Assembly: GCA_003696125.1 (NCBI GenBank)
Contig: RFHZ01000749.1
Coordinates: 1 to 9,202 of the forward strand
Direction: 5' to 3'
Origin: Nitrospinota bacterium
GTDB lineage: Bacteria; Tectomicrobia; Entotheonellia; J063
Length of the DNA stretch: 9,202 nucleotides
The notes under the pieces were generated by a model. That model was not told the origin of the DNA and searched no databases. It saw nothing but the letters and a program-made list of their open reading frames with translations. Position 1 is the first letter of the stretch. Every line of letters begins with the position of its first letter. Of this stretch, positions 11 through 8,744 are shown one piece after another. The translations under genes and the position numbers were made by a program.

Positions 11-586
11 ATGCGACCAAATATCAATACACGAGAGTATTGGAATCGAATCTGGCAGGAGGAGGGACTCCATACCTGGCGTACCTATCGCTTTCTCTTT
101 GATCGAATCGTCGATCTCATCCCCTCCCAGAGTCGCGTCATCGATCTGGGCTGCGGCATCGGGGTCCTGTTGAAACGACTGCAGGAGGAAAAGGGGTGCA
201 TCTGCCTGGGCGTGGACATCTCGGATCAGGCTATCGCCCTGCTCCAGTCCCAGGGACTCTCTGGCATCGCCTCACCGCTTCCCTGTCCTCCCCACCTCCT
301 TTCCCGGTTGTGGGGCTACAAACCGCACTATGTTGTTGCCACCGAACTGCTCGAACACCTCAGCGATGAACATCCCTTCCTTGTCCAGGTGCGCTACCTG
401 CTCACCCATCAGGAGGCCCGGGGAGCGCTCTTTGCCGTTCCTGATAACATACTGGGACCCGAGGAAGAACCGGAGCATCAGCGGAAGTATACGGAGGAAT
501 CGCTGGCCCGGCTCCTCACCCCCTACTTCGGAGAGGTACGGCTCGAGCATCATCACTCCCGGCTGCTGGCTATCTGCACTCCCTGA
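11..586 (+). CDS. Class I SAM-dependent methyltransferase
   Basis: Predicted cytoplasmic enzyme that moves a methyl group from S-adenosylmethionine to an unknown acceptor, 191 residues. The SAM-binding motif I is clear (VIDLGCGIG, residues 43-51). An acidic residue at the end of strand beta-2 (GVDIS, D69) would bind the ribose hydroxyls, and a motif ATELLEHL (110-117) ends the next strand. This is the Methyltransf_11/23 pattern. The start is supported by AGGA at 2-5, five bases upstream of the ATG. The length is short but typical of a bare Rossmann methyltransferase with no extra substrate domain, so the acceptor cannot be guessed. Being next to glycosyltransferase and deacetylase genes suggests a glycan or glycolipid acceptor (inference). 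It may be the last gene of an operon that starts left of the window. Confidence 0.85.
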   Translation: MRPNINTREYWNRIWQEEGLHTWRTYRFLFDRIVDLIPSQSRVIDLGCGIGVLLKRLQEEKGCICLGVDISDQAIALLQSQGLSGIASPLPCPPHLLSRLWGYKPHYVVATELLEHLSDEHPFLVQVRYLLTHQEARGALFAVPDNILGPEEEPEHQRKYTEESLARLLTPYFGEVRLEHHHSRLLAICTP

Positions 587-861: not shown

Positions 862-947
862 GTCGTGAGAGGTATCAGGTATCCAGGATGGCAACGGTGG
901 TTCAGGTAGAGGGATTCCAACGGAGAGAGCAAGTGGAGAAGCAGGAC

Positions 948-2075
948 ATGCATCGGGCAAGCATCTTGCTGGTCATCATCAATCATGCCGGGTTGGGACA
1001 TCTCAACCGGGGCCTGATCCTGGCGCAAAGTCTCCAGGCCTGTTCAACAGCGGTTGCGCCATCTCTGCTGGTGAACTCTGATCTGGCAGAGTCGTTTCTT
1101 GCCGGTGTGACCATCCCGTATTGGAACCTCCCTCCGAGCCGCTGGGACGGGGCAACCCCGACCACACGCAAATTGACAGCCGAGGGGGCTGAGCGAGTCA
1201 AACACCATATCATGCAGCATCGACCAGAGGTACTGGTCTACGATACGATCTTTGTCGAAGCCCTGGTTCCCCTCTTTGCTGCCCAGGGGATCAGGCAGGT
1301 CTGGATCATGCGGGACCGCAAGGAACAGGTGTTGCAGGAATGGTTACGTAAGCCGGTCTTGACTTATTTTGATCTGGTGCTGGTCCCTCATCACCCGGCC
1401 GAGTTTCCCTCCTACCTGCTTCCCGAGTCGATACGACCGAAACTGCTCTTTACCGGACCCTTGCTGCGACTTCCCTCTGGGCAGGATCAGGAGGCGGTTT
1501 ATCAACGGTATGGAATCAGGGAGGAGGAGTTTGTGGTCCTCTTCTCGGCCGGAGGGGGAAACGAAAACGATGATACGATCCGGTTCCTGGACATGGTAAA
1601 CCGGGGATGTCAAGAGCTGGTTCGCCGCTATGCAGATGTACGCTGCGTTGTCATCACCGGCATGGGCCACAGGCAGCCGGTCACCTTTGCACGGCGAACG
1701 CGGATCGAGGTGGTACCGTTTGAGCGGGAGATCTTCACCCTCATGCAACGGGCCGATCTCTTCGTCTCCGAAGCCGGGTATAACACCTGCTACGAGCGGA
1801 TCCTGCTGCAGAGTCCCGGTATCCTCGTTCCGGTAGAAACAAAGATTGATGACCAGTACCGGCGGGCTGCCTATCTGGAGCAGCAGGCAGGTCTCATCGT
1901 CCTGCGGGACTTCTCACCACACCAGCTTGTTGAGCAGATAGTGCATTTATACGAAAAACGGGAAGAGCTGGACAGGATGAAGAGACGTCTACAGTCCCTG
2001 CCTATCTCCGTAGGGAACTACTGTGCTGCTCAGGCGATTCTGGCCCTGTTAGAGGAAAGTTCGGCATGCCGATAG
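948..2075 (+). CDS. MurG-like glycosyltransferase (GT-B fold, GT28/GT1 type)
   Basis: Predicted enzyme that transfers a sugar from a nucleotide-sugar to an unknown acceptor, probably at the inner face of the membrane. From the ATG at 948 it has 375 residues. The N-terminal domain opens with a hydrophobic strand and a glycine loop AGLGHLNRG (14-22), matching the GxGHxxR signature of MurG-like and COG4671 enzymes. The C-terminal domain has a loop FSAGGG (199-204), then SEAGYNTCYE (274-283) and DDQYRRA (301-307), the donor-binding region of this superfamily. An in-frame ATG at 888 would add 20 polar residues. The 948 start is preferred because GGAGAAG precedes it at proper spacing and because the family begins at this strand. 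The end overlaps the deacetylase gene by 10 bases, so the two are translationally coupled. The donor and acceptor are unknown. Confidence 0.8.
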   Translation: MHRASILLVIINHAGLGHLNRGLILAQSLQACSTAVAPSLLVNSDLAESFLAGVTIPYWNLPPSRWDGATPTTRKLTAEGAERVKHHIMQHRPEVLVYDTIFVEALVPLFAAQGIRQVWIMRDRKEQVLQEWLRKPVLTYFDLVLVPHHPAEFPSYLLPESIRPKLLFTGPLLRLPSGQDQEAVYQRYGIREEEFVVLFSAGGGNENDDTIRFLDMVNRGCQELVRRYADVRCVVITGMGHRQPVTFARRTRIEVVPFEREIFTLMQRADLFVSEAGYNTCYERILLQSPGILVPVETKIDDQYRRAAYLEQQAGLIVLRDFSPHQLVEQIVHLYEKREELDRMKRRLQSLPISVGNYCAAQAILALLEESSACR

Positions 2076-2755
2076 TCTTTGTTCGTAACGATGATGTAGG
2101 GCCGCTTACCCCAGAGCTCGAGCAGGTGAGCACCTTGCTCCTGCAGGAAGAGGTTCCGGTGAGTCACGCCGTGATCCCTGCCCGTCTTACCCCTGCCTGT
2201 GAGGCCTGGCTCCAGCGGTTACTCGAGGAATACCCAGACCTGGTAGAAATTCACCAACACGGCTGGCAACACCTCGACTACGGTGGAGAGGGAGAGTTTG
2301 GTCCAGGCCGGAGTTATGCAGAGCAATATCAGGATATTCAACGGGGACAGCATCTCCTCTACACCCGCTTTGGGGCTCGGGTCGTCCCCTGTTTCACCCC
2401 TCCCTGGCACCGCTATACCAGGGATACACTCCGGGTGCTGGCTGCGCTTCGTTTCACCTGTTTCTCCACCAAGCATACGCACAAAATCCCGGAACGCGAT
2501 GCCTACCCCTTGCGGGTACTCCCGGTCCATCTGAATCTGTTGCGACGAGACCAGCAGGGGTGGGTGGTGAAGAGAGAAACCGAATGGCAAAGCGAATGGC
2601 AGGCCCTCCGTTCCCGCGTAGAACCGCTAGGACTCCTTCTACACCATGAGCATTTTCGGAGTCGGGACGATCTTCAACGACTGCGGCACTGCCTTCGTTT
2701 CCTTAAAGCCGAGGGGGTAGTGTTTCAGAAGCTCAGTGAGGGAGCAAAGCGGTAG
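2066..2755 (+). CDS. Polysaccharide deacetylase family protein (NodB/CE4-like)
   Basis: Predicted metal-dependent hydrolase removing acetyl groups from N-acetyl (or O-acetyl) sugars, 229 residues. The NodB motifs are present in order: RNDDVG near the N-terminus (D9, D10: catalytic base and metal ligand), HQHGWQH (63-69, with H65 and H69 as likely metal ligands), CFTPPWHRY (109-117, the substrate-groove motif) and a C-terminal LLHHEHF (191-197) supplying the last catalytic His. There is no signal peptide or membrane segment, so it should act in the cytoplasm on a lipid-linked or nucleotide-linked sugar rather than on mature wall polymer. That is unlike secreted peptidoglycan deacetylases. The start has AGAGGA about nine bases upstream. 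It lies within a tightly coupled operon, overlapping the glycosyltransferase and abutting the ATP-grasp gene. Confidence 0.8.
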   Translation: MPIVFVRNDDVGPLTPELEQVSTLLLQEEVPVSHAVIPARLTPACEAWLQRLLEEYPDLVEIHQHGWQHLDYGGEGEFGPGRSYAEQYQDIQRGQHLLYTRFGARVVPCFTPPWHRYTRDTLRVLAALRFTCFSTKHTHKIPERDAYPLRVLPVHLNLLRRDQQGWVVKRETEWQSEWQALRSRVEPLGLLLHHEHFRSRDDLQRLRHCLRFLKAEGVVFQKLSEGAKR

Positions 2756-2756
2756 A

Positions 2757-4181
2757 ATGGAAAAGTATCAGCAGGCCCAGGCTTTGGTACAGCGCTTTTT
2801 CCTCGAACAGACCGAGGCCGCCGCTTCTTTTCTGGAAGACTTGCGCGCTTTTACCCAGGGCTCTTTCCCCTGGGAGTTTCCGGGAGAGCCTTCTCCTCCT
2901 GAAGACCTGGATATCATTCCGGCGCCTCTCTGCTATGGTATCCAGCATGAGATGTGGGTCCGGCGATGTGCCTATACCGTCAACAAGGCGATCAGGCAGA
3001 TTCTCCACCGGCTGCTTATTGCTGCCCCTTCTCTTTCCCCGCTGGCTGCGTGGGGACTGGGGAAGACGACGTTAGGGATTCTGGAGGAATGGAAGAGACG
3101 GCGGGGAGATCTGGGACCGATCAACGGACGCCTCGATTTCTTCCTGGAGCTGCCTACCATGCGAAGCTGGCTGGTGGAAGAGAATCGGATCAAGGGGGGG
3201 CTGCGGGAAATCGGGGATCTGCTGGCGCTCTTCTTCCGGCAGAGCACGTTGTACCGGATGCTGACCGGGACCGGCTTTGCTCTCAGGCTCCATTATCCCT
3301 TTCGAGAGAGGCTGCGCTGGTTTTATCAAACCTATCGGCAGTGGAAGGGGAAAGAGGCGCTTCCCCGGCCGACCCTCTTTCTCTGGACGCGTTCCGATCA
3401 TCCGCAGCGGGAAGAGCGTTGTTTCCGGCAACTGGTAGAGTGGTTTCCACAGCATTACCCTCCTCTCCGGATCCGCATTGCGGATAATCAGCAGGGGTGG
3501 TGTTATCGGAACGGTCAACTGTTCTACGAGGAGGAACCGGTGGAGATGGTTTTTCGCTTTGAAAAGCTGGCGCGTATAGAAGATTATGCCTATGTTGCTC
3601 CCCTCTTCGAGGCCTATTTTGATCGACGGATCCTTCTCGATACCCCCCCCGCGGCCGAGGTGGCGGATAACAAAATGATCCAGGTATTGCTCTCCGACCC
3701 GGATTATCGTTCCTCTCTTGCCCTCTCTCCTGCCGAACAGTCCCTTCTTTCCCGTATCCTCCCTCCTTCCCGGCTCTTGACCGCTGGGGAAGAGAGTTAT
3801 GCCCTGCAAGAGCGGGAGAGGCTGGTTTTGAAGACCTTGACGGGCGCTGGAGGCAGTGGTACCGTGTTCGGGAGAGATTTCTCGAAAGCCCGGTGGGAAG
3901 ATCAGATCAAAAAGCTGACGGGCCAGGGATTGTTACAGGAGCTCAGGCCACCGTACGTCACCCTTCTCCCCCTCCCTCTGCAGGGGAGAATGACCGTATT
4001 ACCGGTCAAATACGGCTTTGACATATTCACGAGTGGAAGGCTCTCCTATGACATCGAGGGGATTGCGGTGCGGGGAAAGGTCATTTGGGAGGAAGACGAC
4101 CTGTACGAGACGATCAATATGGGTGCCAAAGGACCAGGGCAAAAACGGGGAAAACTCCTCCTCCCTTTGCTGGTCCTGTAG
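2757..4181 (+). CDS. Circularly permuted ATP-grasp ligase-like protein
   Basis: Predicted ATP-dependent carboxylate-amine ligase of the glutathionylspermidine-synthase-like, circularly permuted ATP-grasp type, 474 residues from the ATG at 2757. Visible family features (this numbering) are RLDFFLEL plus VEENRIKGGLREIGD (about 125-154, like the family's LEiN segment), YRNGQLFYEEEPVEMVFRF (250-268, the pre-ATP-grasp strand pair), DNK (304-306), the ATP-binding strand and glycine loop LVLKTLTGAGGSGTVFG (356-372, with K359 as the nucleotide-contacting Lys), WEDQI (378-382), and a C-terminal INMGAKG (431-437), where such enzymes keep their metal-binding Asn. The end looks natural. A GTG at 2736 would add seven residues but lacks a ribosome site at proper spacing, whereas GAGGGAG lies 12 bases before 2757. 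The gene starts one base after the deacetylase stop. Exact subfamily and substrates are unknown. Confidence 0.7.
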   Translation: MEKYQQAQALVQRFFLEQTEAAASFLEDLRAFTQGSFPWEFPGEPSPPEDLDIIPAPLCYGIQHEMWVRRCAYTVNKAIRQILHRLLIAAPSLSPLAAWGLGKTTLGILEEWKRRRGDLGPINGRLDFFLELPTMRSWLVEENRIKGGLREIGDLLALFFRQSTLYRMLTGTGFALRLHYPFRERLRWFYQTYRQWKGKEALPRPTLFLWTRSDHPQREERCFRQLVEWFPQHYPPLRIRIADNQQGWCYRNGQLFYEEEPVEMVFRFEKLARIEDYAYVAPLFEAYFDRRILLDTPPAAEVADNKMIQVLLSDPDYRSSLALSPAEQSLLSRILPPSRLLTAGEESYALQERERLVLKTLTGAGGSGTVFGRDFSKARWEDQIKKLTGQGLLQELRPPYVTLLPLPLQGRMTVLPVKYGFDIFTSGRLSYDIEGIAVRGKVIWEEDDLYETINMGAKGPGQKRGKLLLPLLVL

Positions 4182-4328
4182 AGCGTGCCCGGTTCGTAAG
4201 AGGGCTGTGCAGGTCAGGTCGGAATGTAGAAAGCGGCAAATGGTTATTAACAGACTGTTTTCAGTAACTATGACTGACATTTTGCACACTTTTCTGTCCC
4301 ACGAATCCAGCGCTGTCTACAGGTCTGC
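4182..4328 (+). other. Intergenic spacer with short palindromes
   Basis: This is the left part of the 311-base gap between the two plus-strand operons. No convincing ORF or promoter is seen. It holds an 11-bp palindrome AACAGACTGTT (4249-4259) and a nearby dyad TCAGT/ACTGA (4261-4265 and 4273-4277). A loosely repeated AAC-GACTG motif also occurs twice about 20 bases apart. It is more A+T-rich than the neighbouring genes. It could be an operator region or the decayed end of a mobile element, and neither can be shown here. Confidence 0.3.
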
Positions 4329-4401
4329 ACCGCCGAGGACGCCGAGCACGCAAAGCCTCTTCTTGCTCATTCTTCTCGGTGATCTCCGCGGGCTCGGCGG
4401 T
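4329..4401 (+). repeat. 73-bp palindromic element of 9-bp units
   Basis: The left arm is three 9-bp units (4329-4355: ACCGCCGAG, GACGCCGAG, CACGCAAAG). The right arm is three units on the opposite strand (4375-4401), ending in CTCGGCGGT, a perfect 9-bp complement of the first unit. The inner units pair 6 of 9 and 5 of 9. The 19-base pyrimidine-rich loop is 4356-4374. Palindromes of this CGCCGAG/CGCAGAG type, with 9-bp periodicity, occur in intergenic regions of various bacterial genomes (recalled, not searched). The hairpin is followed by an A-run and a six-T run (4402-4413), so it may also stop transcription at the end of the ATP-grasp operon. Confidence 0.6.
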
Positions 4402-4430
4402 AAAAAGTTTTTTCGGTCACGCATGGCCAC

Positions 4431-4437
4431 AGGAGGT
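4431..4437 (+). promoter_or_regulatory. Perfect Shine-Dalgarno not belonging to a main gene
   Basis: AGGAGGT, a full match to the anti-16S sequence, lies 55 bases before the glycosyltransferase ATG at 4493, too far to serve it. It is six bases before a GTG at 4444 that opens a 46-codon frame. Confidence 0.4.
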
Positions 4438-4443
4438 ATCAGA

Positions 4444-4584
4444 GTGCAAAAGAGTTGTAATAGCTACTTAAACAGAAACGGGGATCAACAATATGCGTAT
4501 TGCCTTTATCACCGGTTACTTTCCTATCCTCTCCCAGACCTTTATTCTGGATCAGATCACGGCCTTGCTCCGTCGCGGCCATGA
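4444..4584 (+). CDS. Possible 46-residue leader ORF overlapping the GT4 start
   Basis: A GTG at 4444 sits six bases after a perfect AGGAGGT and opens a 46-codon frame that ends at TGA 4582-4584, inside the next gene in a different frame. The peptide resembles no family and its second half is just the shifted reading of the glycosyltransferase gene. If translated, it would run ribosomes across the weaker start at 4493, a translational-coupling arrangement. Only the ribosome site supports it, and it may be a chance frame. Confidence 0.2.
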   Translation: MQKSCNSYLNRNGDQQYAYCLYHRLLSYPLPDLYSGSDHGLAPSRP

Positions 4585-5581
4585 TATCGAGATCTTTGCC
4601 TTTATCGATCCGCAGGAGGAGGTGGTACACGAAGAGGTGCAGCAGTATGCCCTCCTGCGTCGTACCCACTATCTGGAGGAGGACTTTACCTCTCTGCAGG
4701 CTGCGGCTCCCTTTGATCTCCTGCACGCCCATTTTGGGCATCGGGCCGCGGCAACCATCGGCTTGCGTGATCGGCTAAAAATCCCCTTTATCGCTTCTTT
4801 CTATGGTCGGGATGCTTCGGCCATTCCCCGCCAGGATCCTACCTTCTATCAGGAGGTGTTTGCCAAAGCCGATGCCATAACGGCCATTTCAGAGGACCAG
4901 AAGCAGGATCTGCTCCGGTTACACTGTCCGGCAGAGAAACTGGAAGTCCAGTACGTGGGGATTGATCTCACCAAGTTCCCGCTGGTAGAGCGAGAGAAGA
5001 GGGGAGGAAACCTGGTTCTCCTCTCTGTGGGCCGTTTTGTAGAGAAGAAGGGGTATCGTTATGCCCTGGAGGCCTTTGCCCGGGTGCTGTCCTTCTGTCC
5101 TGACCTGGAGTATCGGATCATCGGCTATGGTCCCTTGCAGGGGGATATCGAATACGAGATCAAGCGGCTGGGGCTGCAGGAGCGTGTGGTGTTGCTGGGA
5201 CCCCAACCACAGCAGCGTGTCATAGCCGAGCTGCAACGAGCCGACCTCTTTTTACATCCGGCTGTCACCGCAGCCAATGGGGATAAAGAGGGAGTCCCCT
5301 CGGTGCTCAAGGAAGCGCAGGCCACAGGATTGCCGGTAGTGGCGACTTATCATGCCGGTATTCCAGAATTGATCACTTCAGGGTATAATGGGTTGCTCTG
5401 TGCAGAGAGGGATGTGGACTGTCTGGTGGAAAAGCTCCTCCTGCTCCTCTCCCAGCCCGGTTTACGGCAGGAGATGGGCCGCAAGGGACGACAGGTGGTG
5501 GTGGAAAAATTCCGGCTGGAGAGGCAGATTGACCAGTTGGAAGCGTTGTATTCCCGTGTACGGGAACGAGGTGTGGCATGA
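4493..5581 (+). CDS. Glycosyltransferase family 4 (GT-B, retaining)
   Basis: Predicted retaining glycosyltransferase that adds a sugar to a growing surface glycan or lipid-linked oligosaccharide, 362 residues. It resembles the WcaL/AmsK-like exopolysaccharide branch of GT4. The N-terminal acceptor domain begins MRIAFITGYFP with LSQTFI (13-18), typical of that branch. HAHFG (78-82) and FYGRD (103-107) follow. The C-terminal donor domain has SVGRFVEKKG (178-187, with R181 and K186 contacting the diphosphate) and EGVPSVLKE (266-274), a complete EX7E motif, then TGLPVVAT and GIPELI. The ATG at 4493 follows a modest GGGGAT site and fits the family start. The stop overlaps the next gene by four bases (ATGA), so they are co-translated. 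No clear promoter was found just upstream. Confidence 0.88.
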   Translation: MRIAFITGYFPILSQTFILDQITALLRRGHDIEIFAFIDPQEEVVHEEVQQYALLRRTHYLEEDFTSLQAAAPFDLLHAHFGHRAAATIGLRDRLKIPFIASFYGRDASAIPRQDPTFYQEVFAKADAITAISEDQKQDLLRLHCPAEKLEVQYVGIDLTKFPLVEREKRGGNLVLLSVGRFVEKKGYRYALEAFARVLSFCPDLEYRIIGYGPLQGDIEYEIKRLGLQERVVLLGPQPQQRVIAELQRADLFLHPAVTAANGDKEGVPSVLKEAQATGLPVVATYHAGIPELITSGYNGLLCAERDVDCLVEKLLLLLSQPGLRQEMGRKGRQVVVEKFRLERQIDQLEALYSRVRERGVA

Positions 5582-6258
5582 GGCTCGGCACCTATTATCG
5601 ATCCCGGGTGATGCAGTATATGGGTATTGTTCCCCGGGGAGGCTATGTGCTCGACGTGGGGAGCTTTGACGGGTACTACCTCTCCCTCTTCCCCCATGGA
5701 GTGCGGATCGGGGTAGACCTGCACGTCTCCCCTGCTGCCCGTATTCCTATGGTCTGTGCCGATGCCTGTGCCCTCCCTTTTCCGGATGAGGTCTTTGATA
5801 CGATCTATGCCTTTGATGTCATCGAGCATGTCAGGAATAAGACGGCATTTATAGATTCTCTCTTGCGGGTACTGAAGCCAGGAGGGCTTTTGGTTCTCTC
5901 CACTCCCCATAAGGGGATGCGGCTCTTTCCTGCTTCTCTTACCGCCCGTACCCACTGGCAGTGGGGACACCGGGAACCGGGGTATGATGGGTATGGACCA
6001 GAAGAGATCGCTGCCCTGCTGCCCCCAGGGGTAAAGGTCACCTTCCGTTTCTGGCCGGCTCCCTGTCTGCTCAAGACCTATTTTCTCCTCCGTTTTTGCT
6101 GGCGGAAAGTCTCTCCTGTTCTTGCTAAGCCGTTGGTATTTCTGGTAGCCTGGTGTGACAAGAGGTGGAAGGATCGCCGCCTGGCCAATACCTTTATGCT
6201 TGTTGCCCACATCGAAAAACAGGGTAGTTCCCCCATCAACAGAGAGGGAAATGTGTGA
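5578..6258 (+). CDS. Class I SAM-dependent methyltransferase (Methyltransf_11)
   Basis: Predicted SAM-dependent methyltransferase, 226 residues. Motif I is VLDVGSFDG (24-32), the ribose-binding acid is D47 in IGVDLH, an adenine-pocket ADACALPF lies at 61-68, FDVIEHV (79-85) forms the post-I strand, and LKPGGLLVLSTP (99-110) is the hallmark beta-5 region of Methyltransf_11. The segment HWQWGHREPGYDGYGPEEI (126-144) is a substrate-side insertion seen in many glycan-locus methyltransferases. A basic, hydrophobic stretch at 160-200 might touch the membrane. The gene is coupled on both sides by four-base overlaps with two GT4 genes, so the acceptor is probably a sugar or lipid-linked glycan (inference). 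Apart from fold motifs it is not closely similar to the methyltransferase at the window start. Confidence 0.87.
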   Translation: MRLGTYYRSRVMQYMGIVPRGGYVLDVGSFDGYYLSLFPHGVRIGVDLHVSPAARIPMVCADACALPFPDEVFDTIYAFDVIEHVRNKTAFIDSLLRVLKPGGLLVLSTPHKGMRLFPASLTARTHWQWGHREPGYDGYGPEEIAALLPPGVKVTFRFWPAPCLLKTYFLLRFCWRKVSPVLAKPLVFLVAWCDKRWKDRRLANTFMLVAHIEKQGSSPINREGNV

Positions 6259-7562
6259 AAATCGTGCTTATTGGCAAGACCCCGTACGGATTTCCGGAAG
6301 AGAATCAGCGCAGCTATCTTGCCGGTCATTCGCTCGGCTTTACCGATCCGTTTATTAAATACGCCTTGCGAAAGGGACATCAGGTCACCTTAATCACTCC
6401 CCGCGTGGTCTCCACCGAGGAGTGCACCTCCCCCATGCCGATCGTCTTCCCCCCCACATCAGACCGCTTCCATCATCTCTGGATCTTTCCCCGTGATCTT
6501 CCCAAAGTCCCTTTCCCCTTTACCTCTCTGGATACGGAAGCGGCCATTCTACAAGCCTCTCGACTGATGGGAGGGATCGATATCGTCATGTCGATCTATG
6601 TTTTCCCCTGGATCTTACCGGTCAATCATCTCAAGCGAGCGCTCGGGTATAGATCGATAGCCTTTATCCGGGGGACGGATGGTATTAACGGGCTCAATCC
6701 TGCCTCGGTCTACCGCAAGCTCTACGGTCCTCTCTGGGAAGAGATGACCCGGGTGTTTACCCTTGCCCTCCAGGAGTCGGACAGGATTTATGTCCTCTCC
6801 CGCTGGTTACGCGCCTATGTCCAGCGGTTTGGGGTGCAGGTCTCTGGGGTGCTGCCCACGCCTCCCTTCCCCATGCTCCCGGAGTATCTGACATACAAGG
6901 CAGAGAGTGTAGAGCTCAAGCGCATGCTGGTTTCTCAACCGGTCCTGCGGGATACGATGCGTAGCGTCGATCTCACCAAGAAATGGGTCATCTACTTTGG
7001 CCGCTTTCACCGGGATAAGAGTGTGCACCTGCTCATCGAAGCGATCAAACATGTCCGGCATGCTTCAGAATTGACCTTTATTCTGGCCGGAGCAGGACCA
7101 GAGGAGGAGGCGCTACGCAAACTGGCAGAAAAGCTCCAGATCCCGGATCTGCATTTCTGTTTCATCCCTCCGCACCTCATTCCCCTCTTCTGTCGTGCTG
7201 CCACCCTCATGGTGCATCCTGCTATCCCACGGGAGGAGTTCGTGGAGGCGCTGTCCAACAGTTGTGTCAACGCTTCTGCAGCCGGTTGTCCGATCATCTT
7301 GCCCCACAGCCGTACCATTGATTGCGGGGGAGCAGAGGAGACCGTGGGGCCTCTGAATCTCCGCTACCTGACCTTTGCCCCTTCCAGCGATGAACAGCAG
7401 ATGCACCGGGAGATCGCAGCTAAAATCGATTTTCTGGTGAGCCACTCTGCCCTCCGGCAGGAGATCCGCCAGCAGAATGTCCTTTTTGCCCGCCAGTTTT
7501 CTCAGGAGGCGATCTTTACCGCTCTGGAAAGAGAAATGGAGTGCCTGCTCACGGAGAGTTGA
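6255..7562 (+). CDS. Glycosyltransferase family 4 with an altered EX7E motif
   Basis: Predicted GT4-type glycosyltransferase, 435 residues, starting at a GTG that overlaps the methyltransferase stop (GTGA), with GAGAGGG six bases upstream. The N-terminal domain begins MKIVLIGKTPYGFP and includes AFIRGTDG (136-143). The donor domain has YFGRFHRDKSVH (247-258; R250 and K255 contact the diphosphate), LAGAGPEEEALR (277-288) and the region EALSNSCVN (331-339) followed by ASAAGCPII. Here the second Glu of the usual EX7E is Asn (N339), so the donor-ribose contact differs from the standard. It is about 50-70 residues longer than compact GT4 enzymes, with extra sequence around 200-245. It ends the second operon and faces a minus-strand gene 54 bases away. 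Confidence 0.83.
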   Translation: MKIVLIGKTPYGFPEENQRSYLAGHSLGFTDPFIKYALRKGHQVTLITPRVVSTEECTSPMPIVFPPTSDRFHHLWIFPRDLPKVPFPFTSLDTEAAILQASRLMGGIDIVMSIYVFPWILPVNHLKRALGYRSIAFIRGTDGINGLNPASVYRKLYGPLWEEMTRVFTLALQESDRIYVLSRWLRAYVQRFGVQVSGVLPTPPFPMLPEYLTYKAESVELKRMLVSQPVLRDTMRSVDLTKKWVIYFGRFHRDKSVHLLIEAIKHVRHASELTFILAGAGPEEEALRKLAEKLQIPDLHFCFIPPHLIPLFCRAATLMVHPAIPREEFVEALSNSCVNASAAGCPIILPHSRTIDCGGAEETVGPLNLRYLTFAPSSDEQQMHREIAAKIDFLVSHSALRQEIRQQNVLFARQFSQEAIFTALEREMECLLTES

Positions 7563-7616: not shown

Positions 7617-8744
7617 CTAAACCTGGTTGGTCGCGTCTATTGCCGGGGTCAGGGGAATGACAAATACCCGGCTACAGGAGGGGATGTTCGCCTTGATGGC
7701 TTCCTCGATCTGTTGATGGCTCTGGTTGAGCTCTTCTGGACTCAGGGCCGGGCTCAGCTGGAGTTGGACCAGGACGGCTTTTTGGTGAAAGGCCAGGGGG
7801 AGGAGGTGGAGGGAAAAGACCTCCTGCACATGAGGAGACTGCTTGAGGAGCCGGTAGCACGCCTGGTATGTGGAAGCTGTGACCTCTGATTGCACAAAGG
7901 AGGAGAGATAGTCTCGGGTAATTTTTATTCCCAGGCCGGCGAGGAAGCCGCATCCCAGCAGTGCTGTGCCCAGATCGAAGAGAGGGGTACCGGTGAGGGC
8001 AGAGAGGAGGGTCCCCAGGGTCCCGAGGCCGGTGTTACCCAGGGCCATCACAGGGGGAAAGGCCAGGGCCATCACATGTGATCGGGAGGGGAGAGAGGAG
8101 GAGAGCGGTTTCAGCTCCCGTCGTATAAGCAGGAGCAAGGCGAGATACCCTGTCCCCATCAGGAGGAGGCCGGTGGAAAGGGCGGGCAGGGAGTGGAGAG
8201 GAACGGGGTGGAGGAGACCGTATATCACCCGCACAAGGACTACGGTCAGGTTGATGCTAAGCAGCGCAATCGACCCGGCTAAGAGCCAGAAGCATTGCCT
8301 CCGCCTACGATTCCAGGCCAGCGGGGTCTGGGGCAGGCGCACCACGGTGTAAAAGCGTTTAATGGTAAAAAGCGAAACCCCTCCCAGACTGAGGGCAAAG
8401 AGTCCCAGGGCAAAGAGGGTGGCACTGTGGGTAAAGAGACCCAGGGATATGCCGCCACTGGCCAGAAGGAGGTTTCCCAAAGTGCTGAACACCATCAGGA
8501 ATCCTTCCCCCTGCAGGTATTGGGTTTTCAGGGCGAGTATCTTTGCGTATTCGCGGGGATAGCGGGTACGGAGGTAGTCCAGAATCCGTCGTGCCGTCTT
8601 GCTTTCAGAGGAGAGGAGGAGCAGTCCGAGCACAAGGAAGAGGAAGCCTTGCAAGATGGGGAGGAAGATTCCCACGATACCCAACAGGATAAACGTCCAC
8701 CCCATAACCAGCTTTACCACTTTTTTAACCAAGGCACTGTTCAT
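7617..8744 (-). CDS. PGPGW-type membrane hairpin fused to a CDF-like domain
   Basis: Multi-pass inner-membrane protein, 375 residues. Residues 10-46 form a membrane hairpin with GW (15-16), LPILQG (28-33) and GLLLLSSE (40-47), followed by ARRILDYLRTRYP (51-63). This is the pattern of PGPGW/DUF454-like proteins. Further membrane segments lie at about 84-105, 107-126, 152-177, 187-207, 227-250 and 256-276. The C-terminal cytoplasmic part (285-365, RLLKQSPHVQEVFSLHLLPL and a closing RVFVIPL) looks like the dimerisation domain of cation diffusion facilitators. The Asp/His pairs that bind metal in real CDF transporters are not seen in the second and fifth CDF helices, where small residues occur instead, so it is probably not a working zinc or iron pump. 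AAAGGGG lies just upstream of the ATG. Function unknown. Confidence 0.65.
   Translation of the reverse strand: MNSALVKKVVKLVMGWTFILLGIVGIFLPILQGFLFLVLGLLLLSSESKTARRILDYLRTRYPREYAKILALKTQYLQGEGFLMVFSTLGNLLLASGGISLGLFTHSATLFALGLFALSLGGVSLFTIKRFYTVVRLPQTPLAWNRRRRQCFWLLAGSIALLSINLTVVLVRVIYGLLHPVPLHSLPALSTGLLLMGTGYLALLLLIRRELKPLSSSLPSRSHVMALAFPPVMALGNTGLGTLGTLLSALTGTPLFDLGTALLGCGFLAGLGIKITRDYLSSFVQSEVTASTYQACYRLLKQSPHVQEVFSLHLLPLAFHQKAVLVQLQLSPALSPEELNQSHQQIEEAIKANIPSCSRVFVIPLTPAIDATNQV

Follow-up and report, generated by a model that had tools for sequence, protein, structure and literature searches.

A predicted cytoplasmic deacetylase and a divergent ATP-grasp ligase, tightly coupled in a bacterial glycan cassette, and their possible action on one sugar amine

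Introduction

What does a bacterium make with a sugar deacetylase and an ATP-grasp ligase encoded back to back behind a glycosyltransferase? The question is raised by contig RFHZ01000749.1 of a Nitrospinota bacterium, in which the gene for a CE4/NodB-type deacetylase (hereafter, DEAC) is directly followed by the gene for a circularly permuted ATP-grasp ligase (hereafter, ATPG). An original prediction for this DNA proposed that the two enzymes act in succession, DEAC freeing the amine of an N-acetyl sugar and ATPG joining an amino acid or another carboxylate to it. The reading toward which we lean, with somewhat less than even confidence, is that deacetylation is followed by amide ligation of the sugar amine, in the cytoplasm, as part of a one-off surface-glycan cassette. 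The combination itself is a local, rare assembly of common modules and not a conserved three-gene system.

Results

A coupled trio of genes

The window analyzed here is the entire contig (9,202 bases), which belongs to a draft genome of 990 contigs and 4.18 Mb, 94.8% complete and 8% contaminated. The genes in question are:

888 to 2075, forward strand: GT28-type glycosyltransferase, first of the coupled trio, with a MurG/MJ1255-like C-terminal domain (PF04101, E 3.6e-16)
2066 to 2755, forward strand: CE4/NodB-type (DUF2334-like) deacetylase DEAC, 229 amino acids, ATG start (PF10096, PF01522)
2757 to 4181, forward strand: divergent circularly permuted ATP-grasp carboxylate-amine ligase ATPG (leave-one-out profile, invariant residues)

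The frames of the GT28 gene and DEAC share 10 bases, and the ATG of ATPG (2757) lies one base past the DEAC stop, confirming the coupling of DEAC and ATPG described earlier; ATPG might alternatively start at an in-frame GTG at position 2736. The glycosyltransferase had been called MurG-like, which holds at the domain level (PF04101, GT28-type) and not for MurG as such: the protein scores 52 bits against the MurG equivalog TIGR01133, far under the cut-off of 250, and MurG itself is thereby ruled out.

DEAC exceeds the Pfam cut-offs for both DUF2334 (E 2.6e-10) and Polysacc_deac_1 (E 9e-7), and a leave-one-out profile built from 19 relatives, the window protein excluded, recovers it at E 3e-47. 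Conserved residues in a 20-sequence alignment are R7, D9, D10, H65-x3-H69, P113, and H193, and E77 is kept as well; the protein has the catalytic Asp, the Asp-His-His metal triad, and the late catalytic His of CE4 enzymes. Its AlphaFold2 model, built from 20 sequences (predicted local distance difference test score, pLDDT, 95.8), aligns with many CE4 structures (VIA-align Z 17–21; Foldseek E down to 1.6e-10), among them 3rxz (Z 20.8) and ArnD 8t0j (Z 19.0), the latter among the leading entries of a ranking in which the scores scarcely differ. Because GH57-type glucanotransferases also appear lower down the VIA-align list, the fold alone is no proof of deacetylation, and it is the conserved CE4 motifs that discriminate. 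ArnD, the deformylase of lipid-linked 4-deoxy-4-formamido-L-arabinose (Ara4FN), acts on a lipid-linked sugar; it has the CE4 fold in common with DEAC, but the two share only ~17% identity, and genes of the 4-amino-4-deoxy-L-arabinose (Ara4N) pathway are absent from the window. Fold and active site show DEAC to be a CE4-type enzyme, and its putative substrate is an N-acetylated or N-formylated sugar. Pfam matches, CE4 residues, model, and N-terminus all bear out the earlier description of a NodB-type deacetylase that lacks a signal peptide.

ATPG, like two of its scanned relatives, scores below the Pfam cut-offs for PF04174/PF14403 (17.0 vs 23.1 bits for CP_ATPgrasp_1, and 12.8 vs 32 bits), and its identity to the relatives found is 16–25%. 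A leave-one-out profile from 25 relatives, again without the window protein, nevertheless recovers it at E 3e-25. The leave-one-out profiles for DEAC and ATPG reported none of 200 shuffles at E<=10, and these silent shuffles, together with the E values, place both family assignments well beyond chance, the weak ATP-grasp one included. Residues R125, D127, E141, N143, K306, K359, G372, Q394, and R439 are invariant across 11 aligned sequences, and in a 26-sequence alignment the motifs follow the permuted order, R125xD127 and E141xN143 preceding K306, K359, the GG loop, Q394, and R439. Two deviations are a Thr in place of the LKP proline after the ATP lysine and an altered glycine-rich stretch past ExN. 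Reading frames, profile, and motif order thus agree with the circularly permuted ATP-grasp gene placed one base after the DEAC stop in the original prediction, and the ATP- and metal-binding residues, the lack of which was to refute the proposal, are conserved in the sequence alignment. An AlphaFold2 model from the single sequence (pLDDT 34.7) is too poor to use.

A profile made from the 11-sequence alignment matches 9cjn Cp1B, 3n6x, GspS, YgiC, YjfC, and trypanothione synthetase. The matched clan members, where characterized, join carboxylates to amines as amides; for the ATP-grasp enzyme Cp1B, for instance, amide formation has been demonstrated (PMC12568646). ATPG has the motif order and catalytic residues of the circularly permuted amide ligases (PF14403/PF04174 clan) in common with them, but falls under the Pfam cut-offs, and the substrates of those ligases are peptides, polyamines, and small acids. 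As neither ATPG nor DEAC has a hydrophobic N-terminal segment or a signal peptide, both are probably cytoplasmic.

A possible two-step route

Counted in favor of successive action are the frame coupling, the intact CE4 site and confident CE4 model, the match to ArnD, the family residues of ATPG and the amide-forming clan to which it belongs, the lack of signal peptides, the sugar-gene neighbors of relatives, and the precedents taken up in the Discussion. In the scheme that we favor, the GT28 enzyme would attach an N-acylated amino sugar to an acceptor carried on a lipid or a nucleotide, and the metal center of DEAC would then remove the N-acetyl or N-formyl group. ATPG would convert a carboxylic acid into its acyl-phosphate and form an amide between that acid and the amine laid bare on the sugar. 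GT4 enzymes would extend the glycan, which might be methylated before export, and the product may be an aminoacylated glycan. The original interpretation of the pair stands as to enzyme classes, cytoplasmic location, coupling, and glycan setting, and falls as a conserved pathway; it is plausible and a fair hypothesis, though not specifically supported. A stronger claim, that GT28, CE4, and ATP-grasp enzymes form a self-contained module, in which deacetylation in the cytoplasm and ATP-grasp amidation of the resulting amine would yield a glycan amidated with an amino acid or another acid, we consider unlikely.

Several points weigh against the two-step scheme. That DEAC and ATPG act on one substrate is a supposition, and an ATP-grasp enzyme in a glycan locus could equally amidate a uronic acid. 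The remaining points concern recurrence. A scan of 85,000 species genomes with ATPG, which reaches close relatives only, yielded no relative. Scanning the same contig set with the DEAC alignment gave 30 loci (L055–L084, best identity 43%), several of them shortened by contig ends, and the ATPG profile matched within 10 kb in 0/30, even at E<=1. Genomes of the first 12 listed DEAC loci contained ATPG-like matches in two cases, both weak and outside the DEAC neighborhoods, and one with an internal stop. From the opposite side, we examined neighborhoods L029–L053, of which 24 surround ATPG relatives and one, L049, was chosen for its DEAC; the DEAC profile matched L049 only, and so none of the neighborhoods of ATPG relatives. 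In a sample of 386 genomes, 17 contain ATPG relatives and four contain DEAC relatives, with both together only in the genome of the window, a result that carries little weight because well under one further overlap was expected by chance. Four other genomes of the same phylum yielded relatives of neither protein.

With DEAC loci lacking ATPG and ATPG neighborhoods lacking DEAC, the GT28-deacetylase-ATP-grasp trio is not a conserved unit in what was searched. The neighborhood check proposed for the three genes therefore came out against their conservation across genomes, and a conserved three-gene pathway is rejected on the genomes and neighborhoods searched. The earlier remark that the trio was not recognized as a described pathway agrees with the open-access literature, in which our search found neither the exact trio nor a GT28-CE4-ATP-grasp combination for sugar N-acylation.

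The surrounding cassette

The rest of the window comprises:

11 to 586, forward strand: S-adenosylmethionine-dependent methyltransferase (PF13489, E 1.3e-9), with a 301-bp gap before the GT28 gene
4259 to 4472, no strand: dispersed repeat resembling a miniature inverted-repeat transposable element (MITE), located between the ATPG gene and the glycosyltransferase gene that follows it
4493 to 5581, forward strand: WcaL-like GT4 glycosyltransferase (PF00534, E 9e-35; TIGR04005 WcaL, E 6e-55, below cut-off)
5578 to 6258, forward strand: S-adenosylmethionine-dependent methyltransferase, the frame overlapping both neighbors (PF13489, PF08241)
6255 to 7562, forward strand: second GT4 glycosyltransferase (PF00534, E 5e-17)
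7617 to 8744, reverse strand: PGPGW/CDF-like protein, with an N-terminal PGPGW membrane domain and a weak C-terminal match resembling the CDF zinc-transporter dimerization domain

Three glycosyltransferases and two methyltransferases make this locus a glycan cassette, the setting that the original prediction had given it. The fraction of G and C at third codon positions (GC3) is alike across the genes, at 0.61–0.71. A viral or plasmid origin was considered and rejected: single-protein scans found no relative of DEAC or ATPG in viral contigs, there was no PHROGs match, and the only plasmid match, a weak one of ATPG, came from Streptomyces.

The repeat downstream of ATPG is ~214 bp long. Its terminal inverted repeats, imperfect and 32 nt in length (arms at 4259–4290 and 4441–4472), enclose an inner GC-rich hairpin (4329–4401), features that point to a MITE-like element. 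A query with its 141-bp core matches this genome 41 times, the element itself counted, at 70–90% identity, and 18 copies were aligned. Rfam gave no match for the repeat and no known RNA element anywhere in the window. Because the repeat is common to many other contigs of this genome, mis-binning of the contig is less likely.

Neighborhoods of relatives

Relatives of DEAC sit among GT4, ABC-exporter, and nucleoside diphosphate (NDP)-sugar genes, and one of these loci (L056) has GT28-type and GT4 genes close by. In L056, L062, and L107, a GT28 gene and a WcaL-like GT4 gene are adjacent, with frames touching or overlapping, whereas in the window the two are set apart by DEAC, ATPG, and the repeat. 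For this reason the cassette looks like a common GT28-GT4 pair to which a DEAC-ATPG pair has been added. After the deacetylase gene of L057, a fragment cut short by the contig end (11006–11284) resembles, by eye, the beginning of a FemAB-type aminoacyl transferase, with no Pfam match.

Relatives of ATPG have other company. In one small order, represented by three genomes, an SpsG/PseG-like gene directly precedes the ATPG relative in all four loci (L030, 7867–10344; L034, 486–2850; L037, 8118–10417; L038, 4884–7335). Three of the four SpsG/PseG-like genes have PF04101 similarity, and SpsF lies further upstream in L038. This conserved pairing of sugar activation with an amide ligase may merit its own study. 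The nearest ATPG relative (L029) has an ATP-grasp-like gene on one side and a GCS2 ligase gene on the other; GCS2 is also present upstream in L032. The row in L029 (8007–11696), consisting of an ATP-grasp-like gene with a weak PF02655 match, the circularly permuted ATP-grasp gene, and GCS2, is possibly a cluster for a peptide-like metabolite. In L035 (3003–5457), a MATCAP-family (PF08014) peptidase gene lies directly upstream of the circularly permuted ATP-grasp gene.

Discussion

By analogy with NodCBA, MshABC, and PglB2, the proposed chemistry would not be new in kind. NodC is a GT2-type glycosyltransferase, MshA is of the GT4 type and MshB of the PIG-L type, and in the PglB2 pathway an aminotransferase, rather than a deacetylase, supplies the amine. 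NodC, NodB, and NodA, encoded together, provide a glycosyltransferase, a CE4 deacetylase, and N-acylation of the freed amine (PMC5080398); NodA is an acyl-carrier-protein-dependent acyltransferase, whereas the window has an ATP-grasp enzyme, and a GT28. MshA, MshB, and MshC are a glycosyltransferase, a deacetylase, and a ligase that uses ATP to couple an amino acid to the sugar amine, but MshC resembles cysteinyl-tRNA synthetase (CysRS) and works via an adenylate (PMC9736012), unlike an ATP-grasp ligase. In meningococcal Neisseria, PglB2, an ATP-grasp domain fused to a phosphoglycosyltransferase, is responsible for the glyceramido (amide) sugar of the glyceramido-acetamido-trideoxyhexose (GATDH) glycan (PMC11130364), whereas the ATP-grasp enzyme of the window has a gene of its own. 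Clostridium acetobutylicum CA_C2189, annotated as an ATP-grasp amino acyl ligase, occurs in a modified-sugar locus next to spsF, the gene of an SpsF-type nucleotidyltransferase; no deacetylase is among the table entries covered (PMC4000134), whereas the window has one.

The strongest alternative, doubtful though serious, is that DEAC and ATPG decorate one glycan independently: DEAC would make a free amine, for its charge or as a methyltransferase substrate as with NodS, while ATPG would amidate a different residue or build a side-chain precursor, the two genes being neighbors through cassette mosaicism. DEAC and ATPG are indeed apart everywhere else sampled, and N-methylation of Nod factors needs earlier deacetylation (PMC5080398), with two methyltransferases at hand in the window. 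The 10-base overlap and 1-base gap that couple GT28, DEAC, and ATPG argue for a closer connection.

In a second and improbable alternative, the sugar would be the acid partner, with ATPG linking the carboxylate of a glycan uronic acid to an amine such as an amino acid, ethanolamine, or a polyamine. The model is Cj1438 of Campylobacter, the C-terminal domain of which joins capsular glucuronic acid to serinol-phosphate in an ATP-dependent manner (PMC11800397), and a DEAC relative in another genome adjoins genes resembling uridine diphosphate (UDP)-sugar dehydrogenases. The Pfam matches of the window include no uronate-forming gene, though the contig is just 9.2 kb long.

It is very unlikely that the trio serves a mycothiol-like pathway to a glycosylated low-molecular-weight metabolite in place of a surface glycan. 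The order of reactions is that of MshA-MshB-MshC, and the GCS2 genes beside ATPG relatives in L029 and L032 are contexts typical of peptide-like metabolites; however, further along the window come GT4 and methyltransferase genes of the kind usual in polysaccharide loci, and the GT28 enzyme is not MshA/BshA-like. With a CE4 in place of a PIG-L deacetylase and an ATP-grasp in place of a CysRS-like ligase, membership of the MshABC type is rejected. Least probable of all is an ATPG that is decaying or repurposed and without ligase activity, for its low identity, sub-cut-off Pfam scores, lost LKP proline, and altered glycine-rich stretch are set against catalytic columns that are all kept, an intact reading frame, and a GC3 like that of the neighboring genes.

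Successive deacetylation and amide ligation of a sugar amine is thus the reading we provisionally retain. Coming from a single locus in a single draft genome, its present value lies chiefly in pointing out a pairing to search for. If it is true, bacteria could replace the N-acyl group of a sugar with an amino acid or a different acid and need neither aminoacyl-tRNA nor acyl-CoA nor acyl-carrier protein, a route open to direct test, and an ATP-grasp version would be added to the logic of Nod-factor and mycothiol synthesis.

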